Origin: Gilliamella sp. wkB108
Lineage (GTDB): Bacteria; Pseudomonadota; Gammaproteobacteria; Enterobacterales; Orbaceae
Assembly (NCBI RefSeq): GCF_001690195.1
Contig: NZ_LZGM01000049.1
Coordinates: 124,001-188,000, forward strand
Direction of reading: 5' to 3'
Length of the DNA: 64,000 nt
Shown: in pieces, positions 6,679 through 56,785 of the stretch
Layout of the letters: each line of letters opens with the position of its first letter
Numbering within the stretch: the first letter of the stretch is position 1
Position numbers and translations under genes: made by a program
Notes under the pieces: generated by a model
What the model was told of the DNA's origin: nothing
Databases searched by the model: none
Seen by the model: the letters and a program-made list of their open reading frames with translations, nothing else

Positions 6679-6694
6679 ATGGCGGAAGAGGCAG
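6679..6694 (+). repeat. Proximal att site at the 3' end of selC
   Basis: ATGGCGGAAGAGGCAG covers the tRNA 3' terminus (CCA on the minus strand at 6680-6682) and is identical to 4733-4748. It marks the tRNA-side junction of the decayed element. Confidence 0.75.
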
Positions 6695-6770
6695 GAATCG
6701 AACCTACCCCAGCCGATAGGCTGACAACGGTTTTGAAGACCGCGAAGACCACCAGATCTCATCAACTTCC
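6680..6770 (-). tRNA. selC: tRNA-Sec (anticodon TCA), selenocysteine tRNA
   Basis: Read on the minus strand the gene is 91 bases and ends in an encoded CCA. The anticodon loop CTTCAAA holds TCA between CGGT/ACCG stems. The D arm is extended (AGATC-TGGT-GGTCT plus a wobble pair), the variable arm is long (CAGCC-TATC-GGCTG) and the T arm is GTAGG-TTCGATT-CCTGC; these are the marks of bacterial tRNA-Sec. The oddity is the acceptor stem: GGAAGTTG faces CCTCTTCC, so pairs 6 and 7 are T-T and T-C mismatches in what should be an 8-bp helix. The 3' half is the stretch shared with the distal att site. Function with SelB is likely but the weakened stem deserves a check. Confidence 0.92.
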
Positions 6771-7654: not shown

Positions 7655-7840
7655 TCACTTTCTCCCCATATTTTTTATTTATAATTATCAAGATGATTGA
7701 TCGGTTTTATTTACACCTGATTTTGTCGATGAATACAACTGACATTTTTTATCCACAAAATAAAACGTCATTATAACATTAGCTTACATGAACGTGATAT
7801 TAAGCTGTTAAGTGAAAAAATAAATAACCGTTTAATATGA

Positions 7841-8376
7841 ACCAACCCTGTTATAACTCAGTTAGTCGCTAGATGTTGCATTAAAAGAAAAATGAAACGG
7901 TATAGACTCCTGAATATTTTTTACAAAATATGTAGCTGATTATATACAAACCAACCCGTTATAACTCAGTTAGTCGCTAGATGTAGTATCAAAAGAGAAA
8001 TAAAACGGTATAGACTCCTGAATATTTTTTACAAAAAATGTATCAGATTCTATATAAACCCACCCTGTTATAACTCAGTTAGTCGCTAGATGTTGCATTA
8101 AAAGAGAAATGAAACGGTATAGACTCCTGAATATTTTTTACAAAAAATGTATCAGATTCTATATAAACCAACCCTGTTATAACTCAGTTAGTCGCTAGAT
8201 GTTGCATTAAAAGAGAAATGAAACGGTATAGACTCCTGAATATTTTTTACAAAATATGTATCAATTTCTATATAAACCAACCCTGTTATAACTCAGTTAG
8301 TCGCTAGATGTAGCGTCAAAAGAGAAATGAAACGGTATAGACTCCTGAACATTTTTTACAAAAATGAAGAGTAATT
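7841..8376. repeat. Tandem array of five units of about 109 bp
   Basis: Units start at 7841, 7950, 8058, 8167 and 8276, each beginning ACCAACCCTGTTATAAC or a one-base variant (ACCCACCC in the third). Copies are nearly identical, with a few substitutions and single-base indels; a degenerate trace of the unit start appears near 8378-8420. Each unit holds GTTAGTCGCTAGATG and, on the minus strand, TTGTAAAAAATATTCAGG followed by AGTCTATACCGTTTCA, the core shared with elements at about 11.3, 15.7, 42.8 and 54.6-55.5 kb. Some units could encode a 29-residue peptide starting MKRYRLLNIFYKK, but the second unit has lost the ATG and the fifth is truncated. The array lies downstream of the permease gene and upstream of the methyltransferase. 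Confidence 0.92.
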
Positions 8377-11203: not shown

Positions 11204-11327
11204 TTTTCTCTCCTAGATAATATTAAAGTTAAAACATAACTGTTGTTATTTTAGCCTAATTATTTTTATAAAATATGAGTAATTTCACAATTTTATGAAA
11301 AAAATTGATTTTCTTTGAATTTTGATT

Positions 11328-11364
11328 GAAACGCATAGCTAACCTGAAACTTTTTAACAAAAAA
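11328..11364 (-). repeat. Single copy of the dispersed repeat core
   Basis: On the minus strand this reads TTTTTTGTTAAAAAG then TTTCAGGTTAGCTATGCG and TTTC. It matches the core in the two tandem arrays and at about 15.73 and 42.83 kb, and sits in the 342-bp gap between adhP and the MFS gene. Nothing else is recognised in that gap except the terminator at 11453-11480. Confidence 0.7.
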
Positions 11365-15726: not shown

Positions 15727-15771
15727 ATCTTGTAAAAAGATTTCAGGTTAACTATACGTTTTAGTATAAAA
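15727..15771 (+). repeat. Single copy of the dispersed repeat core
   Basis: ATCTTGTAAAAAGA, then TTTCAGGTTAACTATACG, then TTTTAGTATAAAA. The first part also matches the copy at 42828. Within it TATAC and GTATA form an inverted repeat around GTTTTA. It lies in the 284-bp gap between the Pr6Pr gene and xerD. Confidence 0.75.
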
Positions 15772-42827: not shown

Positions 42828-42872
42828 ATCTTGTAAAGAAGTTTCAGGAAAACCTAACGTTTTAATATAAAA
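42828..42872 (+). repeat. Single copy of the dispersed repeat core
   Basis: ATCTTGTAAAGAAG, then TTTCAGGAAAACCTAACG and TTTTAATATAAAA. The left part matches 15727 almost base for base. It occupies about half of the 89-bp gap between hemE and argP. Confidence 0.65.
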
Positions 42873-53210: not shown

Positions 53211-54545
53211 TTAAAACAAATCTAACATTAAAATTTTTGAATTGCGTTGATAGTTATAGAGTTGTTTCTTTTTGATAGGTAGATCATCAACTTCAGCAGG
53301 ATTAAAGCCTTTTTCCCTAAACCAATGAATACTGCGTGTTGTTAGGACAAATATCTTCTCCAGCCCGAGATTTCGCGCACTATCGGTCACTTTTTCAATC
53401 AGTAAATCTCCTCGAGATGAATTACGATAATCTGGATGTATTGCAACACAGGCCATTTCGCCCATTTTTTCTTCCGGATAAGGGTAAAGAGCAGCACAAC
53501 CAATGGTCATATTGTCGCGTTCAATTATGGTGAATTTATCAATTTCTATCTCTAACTGTTCACGTGAACGTTTAACTAAAATACCTTGTTCTTCAAGCGG
53601 TCGAATAAGTTCTAAAATGCCACCAATATCGTTAATGGTTGCCGAGCGAATTTGTTCCGAATGTTCCATTGCAACTTGAGTACCAATGCCATCCCGTGAA
53701 AATAATTCCTGTAAAATAGAACCGTCAATTAAATAGCTGACTAAGTGACTTCGTCGTACACCATTTCGGCAAGCTTTAGAAGCTGCACGTAAAAAGCGCG
53801 CTTCGCTCGACAAATGTTTGCCTTGATGTTCTTTATAATTAACATAGTTATCTGCATCAATAGGAAACAGGTCAGTAATGACACGCCCTTGTTCATCAAG
53901 TACCCCCTGCTCTGCACAAAAACTAATTAATTTATCTGCTTTTAACCGAATAGCGACTTCAGCTGCAACATCTTCAGATGATAAATTAAAACTTTCACCG
54001 GTAACGGAAACACCAACTGGACCCAATAATACAATGGAACCACGTTTCAATTGTTCATCAATCGCCTCGTTATTTATACGGCGAATCTTACCAGTATGAC
54101 AATAATCGATACCATCTTCGACTCCAAGTGGCTGCGCTATAACAAAATTACCACTTACCACACTAATATGTGCGCCTTGTAAGGGCGTATTATTTAAGCT
54201 CATTGATAAACTTGCGGTAATATTGAGTTGTAATAAACCAGTAACTTGCTTAACAATATCAAGGGTAGATGCATCGGTGATTCGTGTGTTTTTATAATAT
54301 TTAGGCTCTATATTATTTTTTTTGAGTGATTCATCGATCTGATTTCGTGCGCCATTAACGATAACAAGTTTAATGCCCAGACTATAAAGCAAACCGATGT
54401 CGCTAATAATATTTGAATAATTATTGCTTTTTAACACCGCCCCTGTTAATAAAATAACAAAGGTTTTTCCATGGTGAGCATTTATATAAGGTACTGAATG
54501 TCTTAATCCTTCAACTAGCTCTGTTGTTCTTTCTTTCATTTTCAC
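53211..54545 (-). CDS. argA: N-acetylglutamate synthase ArgA
   Basis: About 444 residues (E. coli 443). First step of arginine synthesis, acetylating glutamate. The N-terminal amino acid kinase-like domain ([30 protein letters not shown]) is the arginine sensor; the C-terminal GNAT domain (about 290-444, [42 protein letters not shown]) is the catalyst. Three starts compete: GTG 54551, GTG 54545 and ATG 54539. The AAAGG site favours GTG 54545; alignment to the E. coli start MVKERKTELVEG allows 54545 or 54539. Two ARG boxes lie immediately upstream. Confidence 0.96.
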
Positions 54546-54556
54546 AGACACCTTTT

Positions 54557-54595
54557 AATGAATATTTATTCATATTTTTTGTATTTTTATTTATT
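54557..54595 (-). promoter_or_regulatory. Paired ARG boxes (ArgR operator) upstream of argA
   Basis: AATGAATATTTATTCATA (54557-54574) fits the 18-bp ArgR consensus wNTGAATwwwwATTCANw at every position. After exactly 3 bases, TTTGTATTTTTATTTATT (54578-54595) fits at 16 of 18. Two boxes 3 bp apart is the classical arrangement for the ArgR hexamer. The first box ends only a few bases before the ribosome site. Confidence 0.85.
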
Positions 54596-54643
54596 TTTAC
54601 ACGAATAGCAAGCATTTTTTAAAAATTTGATAAGGCAGAAATA

Positions 54644-55490
54644 TTTTTATCTTAAATTTAATAATTAGCATGAATATAAAGATGTTTCAGGTTAGCTATA
54701 CGTTTTAGTATAAAATTAAAAAGCGAGCCAATTACAGTCACGCTTTTATTCATTAATTGCTTAATTAACTAAAGCAGTGACATTATTCTTCTCTTAAATT
54801 TGATACCGACGATGAATGTAAAGATGTTTCAGGTTAGCTATACGTTTTAATATAAAAATAAAAAGCGTGCCAATTTCAGTCACGTTTTTATTCATTAATT
54901 GCTAATTAACTAAAGCAGTGACATTATTCTTCTCTTAAATTTGATACCGACGATGTATGTAAAGATGTTTCAGGTCAGATATACGTTTCAATATAAAAAT
55001 AAAAAACGTGCCAATTACAGTCACGCTTTTATTCATTAATTGCTTAATTAACTAAAGCAGTGACATTATTCTTCTCTTAAATTTGATACCGACGATGAAT
55101 GTAAAGATGTTTCAGGTTAGCTATACGTTTTAGTATAAAAATAAAAAGCGTGCCAATTACAGTCACGCTTTTATTCATTAATTGCTTAATTAACTAAAGC
55201 AGTGACATTATTCTTCTCTTAAATTTGATACCGACAATGAATATAAAGATGTTTCAGGTTAGCTATACGTTTTAGTATAAAATTAAAAAACGTGGCAATT
55301 TTAGTCACGCTTTTATCCATTAATTACTTAATTAACTAAAGCAGTGACATTATTCTTCTCTTAAATTTGATACCAACAATTAATGTAAAGATATTTCAGG
55401 TTAGCTATACGTTTCAATATAAAAATAAAAAGCGTGCCAATCATGGTCACGCTTTTTGTCATTAATTGCTTAATTAACTAGTTGTCTTTA
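54644..55490. repeat. Tandem array of six units of about 142 bp
   Basis: The marker GATGTTTCAGG (or close variant) starts at 54681, 54823, 54964, 55106, 55248 and 55390, a period of 141-142 bp. Each unit runs: AATGTAAAGATG, TTTCAGGTTAGCTATACG, TTTTAGTATAAAA, then a hairpin (in unit four AAAAAGCGTG to CACGCTTTTA at 55143-55172), then TTAATTAACTAAAGCAGTG and TTAAATTTGATACC. Hairpin arms vary between units, with wobbles or single mismatches. On the minus strand each unit has GAGAAG then ATGTCACTGCTTTAG, a five-codon frame (MSLL). The array fills most of the gap between the MFS gene and argA; no gene is seen in it. Confidence 0.95.
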
Positions 55491-55585: not shown

Positions 55586-56785
55586 CTAAATCTTTTTCAT
55601 ATCAATAACTTTAGTAAATCGTAAATAAACAATCAAACCTAATACAGCACTTAAAAAGGCCATAGAAAAGTCAGTTAAAATGGCATAACTAACGTCTATT
55701 TTTGCTAGCTTTGGTACAACTCGTGGAATAATAAAAAAAGATAATCCACTGAGCGTATACATACAGCCTACAGCAAGACCTTTACGTGCAGGAAACATTT
55801 GTTGCATAACCACCAACGTTAATTGTAAAACGCCACCTGCTGCAGTAAATCCCATTCCGATTGCGGTAATAAGACACATTAGCGGAGTAATATTAAAATA
55901 GAAAAGGATCAACACTAATGCCGATAGTGTAGGGAGTATAATGATACAATTAATTGGTTTTAAAAAGCGTTTTACAATATAAGCGGTAACAAATACTGAA
56001 ATAATTGAAGCTGAACTATAGTAGCTAATAAGTTGTTTTGCTTCAATATCACTCATATTAACGCCTTGAGTTGCAATAGCCGGAAGCCACTGCCAGATAA
56101 TGACAAATGTTGCGGTTGTAGTAAATCCCATAATAATGAGTAATATACCTTCAAATTGAAAGTTAGGCTTGCCAATAAAATAATTTTCGGCGTCGACATT
56201 TCCTCTTATGGCCGTATCTTTGTGTGGAAATTGTTTAGGTAATAAACATAAACCATTTATGATTAAATAAGTAGTAAATCCAATAAATGCCCATCCATAC
56301 CATAATTGATTTTTATAAAAAAAAGTAACGATAAATGGTAATATAAGACTACCTATTGAAATAAACGCTTTGATTAGTACACTTGCTGAACCAGCTGATC
56401 CCGGAAAGCATTCGGTTAAAGTAGGCATAGAACCTGTATCTAAAAAAGAGTTACCAGCACCAACCACAATAGCTAAACAAAAAGCAATGTTCACGTCAGT
56501 ACAGAAAGTCATTCCAATAAAGAAAATAGCATAACAAGCCATACCAATATAAATAAAGGGTTTACGCCCAAATTTATCGGATAATAGACCTCCTATGAAC
56601 ATTAATAATATTTTACCAATGCCGATACCGGAAGCGACAAAACCAAGTCCGATTAAATCGGTATTAAGTTGTTTTGATATATCTCCAGAGAATTGCATAA
56701 GAACAATCAATGCCATGCTTTGTATAATATAATTAGCATAAATCGATCCGACAATTCCGTAAGAATTGACTCGTTGAGTATCCAT
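55586..56785 (-). CDS. MFS transporter of unknown substrate
   Basis: 399 residues with 12 predicted membrane segments. The helix 2-3 signature of the major facilitator superfamily reads GGLLSDKFGRKPFIYIGM, and VVGAGNSFLDTGSMPTLTECFPG resembles the sugar/organic-acid branch with a D-x-G-x-x motif in helix 4-5. No specific substrate can be named. The ATG follows a GGAG-type site (GGAGTACAACAAATGG). It stands alone between aroL and the six-unit repeat array, upstream of argA on the same strand. Confidence 0.85.
   Translation of the reverse strand: MDTQRVNSYGIVGSIYANYIIQSMALIVLMQFSGDISKQLNTDLIGLGFVASGIGIGKILLMFIGGLLSDKFGRKPFIYIGMACYAIFFIGMTFCTDVNIAFCLAIVVGAGNSFLDTGSMPTLTECFPGSAGSASVLIKAFISIGSLILPFIVTFFYKNQLWYGWAFIGFTTYLIINGLCLLPKQFPHKDTAIRGNVDAENYFIGKPNFQFEGILLIIMGFTTTATFVIIWQWLPAIATQGVNMSDIEAKQLISYYSSASIISVFVTAYIVKRFLKPINCIIILPTLSALVLILFYFNITPLMCLITAIGMGFTAAGGVLQLTLVVMQQMFPARKGLAVGCMYTLSGLSFFIIPRVVPKLAKIDVSYAILTDFSMAFLSAVLGLIVYLRFTKVIDMKKI

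Follow-up and report, generated by a model that had tools for sequence, protein, structure and literature searches.

The QUAD/SIB repeats of E. coli are ~140 bp long, occur both in tandem and dispersed, and carry an antisense frame for an Ibs-type toxin of 18–19 amino acids. REP/BIME elements are short intergenic repeats of some tens of bases, sometimes clustered, that go with RAYT transposases. The matS sites, the SlmA and Noc sites, and Ter are protein sites kept in place along the chromosome, Ter being non-palindromic and polar. ERIC (enterobacterial repetitive intergenic consensus) elements, according to a review (PMC2229807), are 127 bp long, have inverted repeats at both termini, form stable stem-loops, and are flanked by target site duplications. 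Here, we describe a dispersed core element of ~40 bp in Gilliamella, one copy of which lies in each unit of a tandem array next to argA, in a window (the whole stretch of DNA analysed) of 64,000 nucleotides from Gilliamella sp. wkB108. The array repeats resemble QUAD/SIB in being ~140 bp long and tandem plus dispersed, but they have no Rfam match at gathering level and only ~40 bp are conserved between places. Like REP/BIME, the core is short, intergenic, and sometimes clustered; it differs in having no palindrome and, in 34 of the 35 genus genomes, no Y1 transposase. It is kept in place as matS, SlmA, Noc, and Ter sites are, but comes without Tus and without a clear terminus pattern, and its centre varies between species. 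Dispersed, mainly intergenic, multicopy, and group-limited, it also recalls ERIC/IRU and other MITEs as described in that review (PMC2229807); however, at ~40 bp it falls below the 100–200 bp length range, and it has no inverted termini (by eye) and no supported stem. With its many homologous intergenic copies, it belongs to the general kind of dispersed intergenic repeat families. The titles and abstract openings of the Gilliamella papers matched by our searches contain no description of this element, and our search for literature on repetitive extragenic sequences of Orbaceae returned none. We read the element as a putative protein-binding DNA site whose neighbourhood is prone to tandem duplication, and we give this reading roughly even odds (a probability of about 0.5).

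The argA-MFS array and its hairpins

TRF places the array at window positions 54642–55480 (no strand assigned; period 142, 5.9 copies, 92% matches, and 0% indels), and a repeat search finds six registers with spacings of 141, 142, 142, 142, and 142, which bears out the regular array of six 142-bp units described in the sequence-only reading; by eye, the array homology begins slightly before the TRF start, near 54630. The downstream neighbour is argA (N-acetylglutamate synthase, 53211–54551, − strand), and the MFS transporter gene (55586–56785, − strand) has its 3′ end toward the array, both genes being identified from their translations; the gene order is tandem, MFS and then argA. An argA match at 87–100% identity is present in 33 of the 35 genus genomes and is weak only in G005 and G024. 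A dyad at 54559–54572 (TGAATATTTATTCA), ~60–70 bp from the array start, is presumably ARG-box-like. Each unit carries one core element on the + strand, at 54675–54714, 54817–54856, 54958–54997, 55100–55139, 55242–55281, and 55384–55423 for units 1 to 6, respectively; the unit 3 copy, with three mismatches to the search motif, has the most among the six.

Each unit also holds the GCGTG/CACGC terminator-like hairpin with A and T runs that had been described earlier, and the unequal upkeep of this hairpin, also remarked on then, is visible in the minus-strand energies, which range from −7.5 to −16.7 kcal/mol (−7.5, −9.9, −10.1, −12.5, −8.1, and −16.7 kcal/mol for units 1–6). The unit 6 copy (55427–55457, − strand; −16.7 kcal/mol) is an intact bidirectional terminator-like hairpin that adjoins the MFS gene and is the first to be encountered by MFS transcripts; the unit 1 copy (54718–54747, − strand; −7.5 kcal/mol) adjoins argA and is weakened. 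A shuffle test of the hairpin alone, which covered units 1, 3, 4, and 6, found that units 3, 4, and 6 fold better than shuffles (z −2.57 to −6.06) and that unit 1 has a z of −1.55, with 14 of 200 shuffles equally good. An intact stem with a U-tract is present solely in the MFS-proximal unit 6.

The earlier proposal was that these hairpins may act as stacked terminators that shield argA from the MFS gene. The tandem order with MFS first, the hairpin with A and T runs in every unit, and the folding of units 3, 4, and 6 are all in keeping with such a stack. We nevertheless consider it very unlikely as a selected function, because five of the six hairpins are weakened and the one nearest the MFS gene alone is near-perfect; a consensus terminator scan of the array scores a single site (unit 5, + strand) against a shuffle mean of 0.3, and the part conserved genus-wide, at the dispersed places, is the core and not the hairpin. 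One intact and five weaker hairpins are what would be expected if one terminator is needed and five copies are spare, and leaky extra termination by the other five units is possible.

Related genomes also count against the stack. At the place of the array, the argA-MFS intervals of G020 and G023 each contain just one core, which is diverged, and after it a single terminator-like hairpin whose sequence differs (by eye) from that in the window's own genome (G000); the amplification to six units therefore took place in the G000 lineage. G003 likewise has a core at the argA-MFS place, on a contig that ends 280 bp upstream of argA. Please note that our search upstream of argA used the G000 centre at ≤5 mismatches in 30 genomes including G000, and its matches, G000 and G003 only, did not include the G020 and G023 cores, which were found by eye in the first 330 nt; diverged copies elsewhere may be missed in the same way. 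The array represents a tandem amplification, specific to this lineage, of the intergenic segment between the MFS gene and argA; this segment already held one old genus-wide element and the MFS terminator. Upstream of argA in G001 (L160), a possibly degenerate core (AGTTCAGGTTAGATAATGTTTAAA) was seen by eye at the array’s place.

The second proposal, that the units encode small RNAs as QUAD/SIB repeats do, fared no better, and the earlier reading of the array as a whole is partly supported. Rfam gave no hit over the array at gathering level; at E ≤ 1 there were three hits, none of them SIB/QUAD and all far below gathering scores. Whole-unit folding is not better than shuffles (z −0.97 and −0.01), and promoter-like sites in the array number 3 against a shuffle mean of 7.6. 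An Ibs-type frame of 18–19 amino acids with a ribosome site is absent from the units, which hold only a 33-codon frame without a Shine-Dalgarno sequence and a four-codon frame; the GAGAAG-ATG frame (M-S-L-L-stop) pointed out earlier is, by eye, present in the sequence. That the array yields repeated small RNAs, or a tiny type-I-toxin-like peptide from the 33-codon minus-strand frame MNKSVTVIGTLFIFILKRIANLKHLYIHRRYQI, is in our judgment highly improbable. This frame is open in six of six units (31 codons in unit 1) and has a hydrophobic stretch and a basic tail; however, no Shine-Dalgarno sequence precedes it (by eye), the Rfam and folding results given above speak against it, and the codon-position pattern over 116 cores is unlike that of coding DNA. 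Third codon positions there are almost invariant save in one CTN codon (the free position described below), and the other changes fall at first and second positions, for which we rejected a coding reading. The minus frame is open at 83 of 86 core loci because the sequence is conserved, and a start codon is found at only 22 of the 86.

A dispersed core element in Gilliamella

The "dispersed core" of the sequence-only reading proved right, since the window contains eight copies of TTTCAGGTTAGCTATACGTTTTA at ≤3 mismatches, whereas 100 dinucleotide shuffles contain none, and six of the eight are in the array, where every unit holds it with ≤3 changes. The two further copies are single ones, at 15731–15770 (+ strand) and 11320–11359 (− strand); another single copy, with a different centre (AGGAAAACCT), lies at 42832–42871 (+ strand). 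The element is non-palindromic and reads TGTNAARAWGTTTC-N10-TAYGTTTNARTATAAA. When an array unit was used as BLAST query, 55 places were found in G000, most of them sharing only ~40–50 bp. The 23-bp core at ≤3 mismatches gave 129 copies (75 + 54) in G000, with 0 for the reversed-pattern control, and two patterns at ≤3 mismatches put the copy number at 123–129.

Briefly, a profile was made from 116 sites (<5 mismatches to the 23-bp core) in 76 G000 stretches plus the window. It reads TGTAAARAWG-TTTCAGGTTARCTATAYG-TTTNARTATAAA and sums to ~64 bits, a value inflated by how the sites were picked. Conservation stops sharply on both sides of the core, with the exception of a subset that has an IS30-like end or a shared longer repeat downstream. 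One internal position is free (A22 C32 G14 T48 of 116), and the positions flanking it are 98–99% conserved. Most variable positions vary independently of one another (linkage tests over 79 loci, of which 2 of 28 fell below 0.05), so the copies do not form subfamilies. By a simple ORF caller, 115 of the 116 sites are intergenic; their gene context is tandem in 34 and 32 cases, convergent in 27, and divergent in 18, the rest being at contig ends and array copies counted singly, and since the core stands in every gene-orientation context, the neighbouring genes would seem to matter little. The G000 sampling favoured the AGGTTARCTA centre, the first sample having been picked by centre. Another 12 copies at ≤6 mismatches (one of these at 6) turned up in 400 kb of G000 chosen away from the listed sites; most have a different centre, so that "one centre per species" is only a dominant tendency.

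Several identities for the core were tried and rejected. A sigma-70 promoter can be read in the G000 core as TTGTAA-N17-TATAYG, but other species have CCTACG or GGTACG there (by eye), and the promoter scan lies below shuffles. The stem TATAC/GTATA, as an RNA stem or a palindromic REP stem, is paired in 72.3% of cells against 71.6% in shuffles (143 of 500 as high), with covariation not above control. GCTGAATTCAA (≤3 mismatches) stands exactly 13 nt after the core at 25 of the 116 G000 sites and at 14 nt in five more, and it occurs anywhere in 88 of 720 control windows; a cassette reading based on this spacing was dropped, as GCTGAATTCAA reads as an IS30-like end and is rare (by eye) at the sampled G001, G002, and G020 sites. 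The fixed spacing gives the impression that the core is a target of an IS30-like element, and L134 has an IS30-like transposase fragment at 1878–2516 (family by reading). At L113, two cores in opposite orientation lie in a prophage-like region with replication-protein-like and lysis-like frames, again by reading. A viral or plasmid origin was rejected on two negative searches: the 21-letter exact core pattern, which fixes TTTCAG and misses other dialects, was found in 0 viral contigs, and BLAST of the array against phages and plasmids gave no match.

All of the exact-match stretches (26 of 26) come from Gilliamella. With fixed arms and a free 10-bp centre at ≤3 mismatches, 20 of the 35 genus genomes match and the control has 0 hits in 35 of 35; the ten richest genomes by this arm pattern hold 137, 123, 87, 81, 64, 53, 45, 26, 25, and 23 copies. 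These ten look scattered on the argA tree, and a split into rich and poor genomes based on the pattern counts was given up, as profile R1 shows many of the "poor" genomes to be rich. At E ≤ 0.1, R1 has hits in 35 of the 35 genomes, with at least ~109 in many and only 1–8 in nine (G004, G006, G013, G018, G025, G026, G029, G030, and G032). The one hit in G004 (E = 0.092) is at chance level: outside the genus, 1–3 weak profile hits, all with E ≥ 0.0035, occur in 8 of 25 genomes, and the G004 hit does not surpass them. By these searches, the core element is genus-wide, with nine of the 35 genomes poor in it. The best G026 copy lies in a 6-kb stretch that is 98.3% identical to G001 (L302 in G026 and L309 in G001) and holds one core; this stretch was probably transferred, likely in recent time.

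Core sites at orthologous places

A G000 core lies in the same interval for at least 12 of 20 sampled sites of G020, at least 8 of 20 of G002, and at least 5 of 20 of G001, in total at least 25 of 60, and the orientation is the same in 25 of 25; the sampled sites are the best-matching among those listed, and the orthology counts are lower bounds. At least two of three G017 sites are also at G000 core places. The G000 interval orthologous to L278 (G001) has no core, and L274, L293, and L298 are ambiguous.

We compared 26 orthologous pairs, i.e., 24 of the 25 plus two of G017, with three G000 loci entering two pairs each. At the free position, 8 of the 26 pairs are alike, and 21 of the 30 arm positions agree in 24–26 of the 26, an arm identity that is biased upward because both members of each pair had been retrieved with the motif; three further degenerate positions of the arms agree in 12–14 pairs and the centre positions in 10–23. 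Arms kept in place while single positions are randomised indicate selection on the arms in place, since recent copying would not randomise single positions alone. These comparisons establish an element inherited in place and under selection, not a recently moved repeat. That the core is genus-wide and stays at orthologous places was not visible to the sequence-only reading from the window alone.

These results bear directly on another possible history of the core, in which an old non-autonomous repeat of the MITE/REP/ERIC kind moved about in the ancestor of the genus and has since become an inert fossil. Such a history would fit the many similar intergenic copies and their small number in some clades, but we think it unlikely: the profile has no terminal inverted repeats (by eye), and the free position is randomised with its neighbours kept, which points to continued selection. 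A Y1 transposase (PF01797) was found in one of the 35 genus genomes (G009) and not in G000, the E. coli control being positive; the lack of this transposase in 34 of 35 genomes, including G000, means that the core is not a REP/RAYT system and also counts against the fossil. Were the core a fossil after all, one would still have to explain why it has been kept at orthologous places around a single free position.

Tus/Ter was rejected as well, since Tus (PF05472) was found in 0 of the 35 genus genomes, with a positive E. coli control. The core shows a weak replication-strand bias, with 99 of the 155 clusters from four complete genomes co-oriented with replication (p = 7e-4 pooled, in a test that ignores the shared descent of sites between species); the bias does not hold in G001 or G007 alone. 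The replication halves were set by dif and two alternative origins, near a dnaA match or near an hda-like match that we take to be hda. The terminus third is neither clearly enriched in cores nor clearly avoided by them (p 0.33, 0.18, 0.22, and 0.045 in the four genomes). The four complete Gilliamella genomes also have pairs of dif-like sites in opposite orientation, 0.7–1.5 kb apart and roughly opposite the presumed origin (G001:C1:1385218/1386767, the second site with 3 mismatches; G002:C1:184122/184887; G007:C1:2405236/2405902; and G012:C1:1566344/1567153).

Local arrays and a putative binding site

The 76 core stretches plus the window contain ten core arrays of at least three copies, with periods from 117 to 283 bp, and ten arrays of differing unit length suggest that the neighbourhood of the core is prone to tandem duplication. 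For comparison, TRF at a period of ≥40 applied to core-poor DNA (400 kb) found six arrays, of which three are in open frames, one is a tRNA gene run, and the other two are non-coding, with 1.9 and 3.0 copies; this comparison should be read with the knowledge that the core-poor DNA was selected away from the listed sites and that array-bearing loci had more chances of being sampled. G001 and G002 have core arrays of their own (L276, L281, and L300), and L281 of G001 (163 bp × 4) and L110 of G000 (283 bp × 4) are at orthologous places with different amplified units. A second array in the window (7835–8364, − strand; 109 bp × 4.9) has units with a variant core (TTGTAAAAAATATTCAGGAGTCTATACCGTTT); variant-core arrays of 109 bp (or 108 bp) are also found at L071, L083, L094, L107, and L125, and arrays of 166 bp at L078 and L124. 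Within 13 arrays, the core shows 6.8% differences and the spacer 7.3%, the core being lower in 9 of the 13; core and spacer differ about equally, so there is little sign that the extra copies are selected.

The ends of the arrays bring in the strongest rival to the protein-site reading, namely that recombination or duplication takes place at the core itself, as a site-specific recombination site that is either active or a relic, with crossovers or breaks at its edge giving rise to the arrays. The array homology stops within 3 nt of a core edge in 8 of the 13 arrays (at the 3′ edge of the last core in six and at the 5′ edge of the first core in two), and at L124, two direct cores of G000 stand ~2.4 kb apart at a place with a single core in G020. 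We find this explanation doubtful, however. Homologous recombination between cores could yield identical edges; the window array, whose homology extends 33 and 57 nt past the core edges, does not end at a core edge, nor do those at L072, L096, L110, and L135 by the same 3-nt mark; we found no transposase or integrase tied to the core; and the conservation of core places between species means that the core does not move much now.

We return to the protein-site reading. Dispersal, constancy of place and orientation, selection on the arms, and amplification are its observed steps; a protein, its role, and a cause of duplication are what we infer. The element would function at the level of double-stranded DNA and be recognised by a sequence-specific protein that contacts the two conserved arms and tolerates, or adapts to, the changing 10-bp centre. 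Tandem duplication of core-bearing stretches would be favoured either by stalling of replication or transcription at the tightly bound protein or by recombination at the core itself. The arrays would then be tolerated by-products that raise the number of sites and, at argA, also copy a terminator. It should be noted that several points weigh against a protein site. Our searches found no binding protein, those for the Tus and Y1 families in the 35 genus genomes being largely empty; ~64 bits far exceeds what one protein needs to find ~100 sites; and the scant selection on extra array copies and the weak strand bias do not favour it either.

More tentatively, the core may be part of a genus-wide system with ~100 polar 40-bp sites per core-rich genome, two constant arms, a centre that shifts by lineage together with a putative recognition protein, and breakpoints that make the local arrays; we regard this larger picture as possible and would not press it. 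Such a system could be the bacterial equivalent of repeat amplification driven by fork barriers, or else a recombination site of a kind not described before. If the protein-site reading is true, a major symbiont of the bee gut would have a network of DNA-protein contacts spanning its chromosome, with a natural experiment at hand in species that have ~100 sites and sister clades that have almost none. With the arrays, one can also ask why certain intergenic places duplicate again and again. The window also contains a selenocysteine tRNA gene (Rfam RF01852) at 6684–6770 (− strand).
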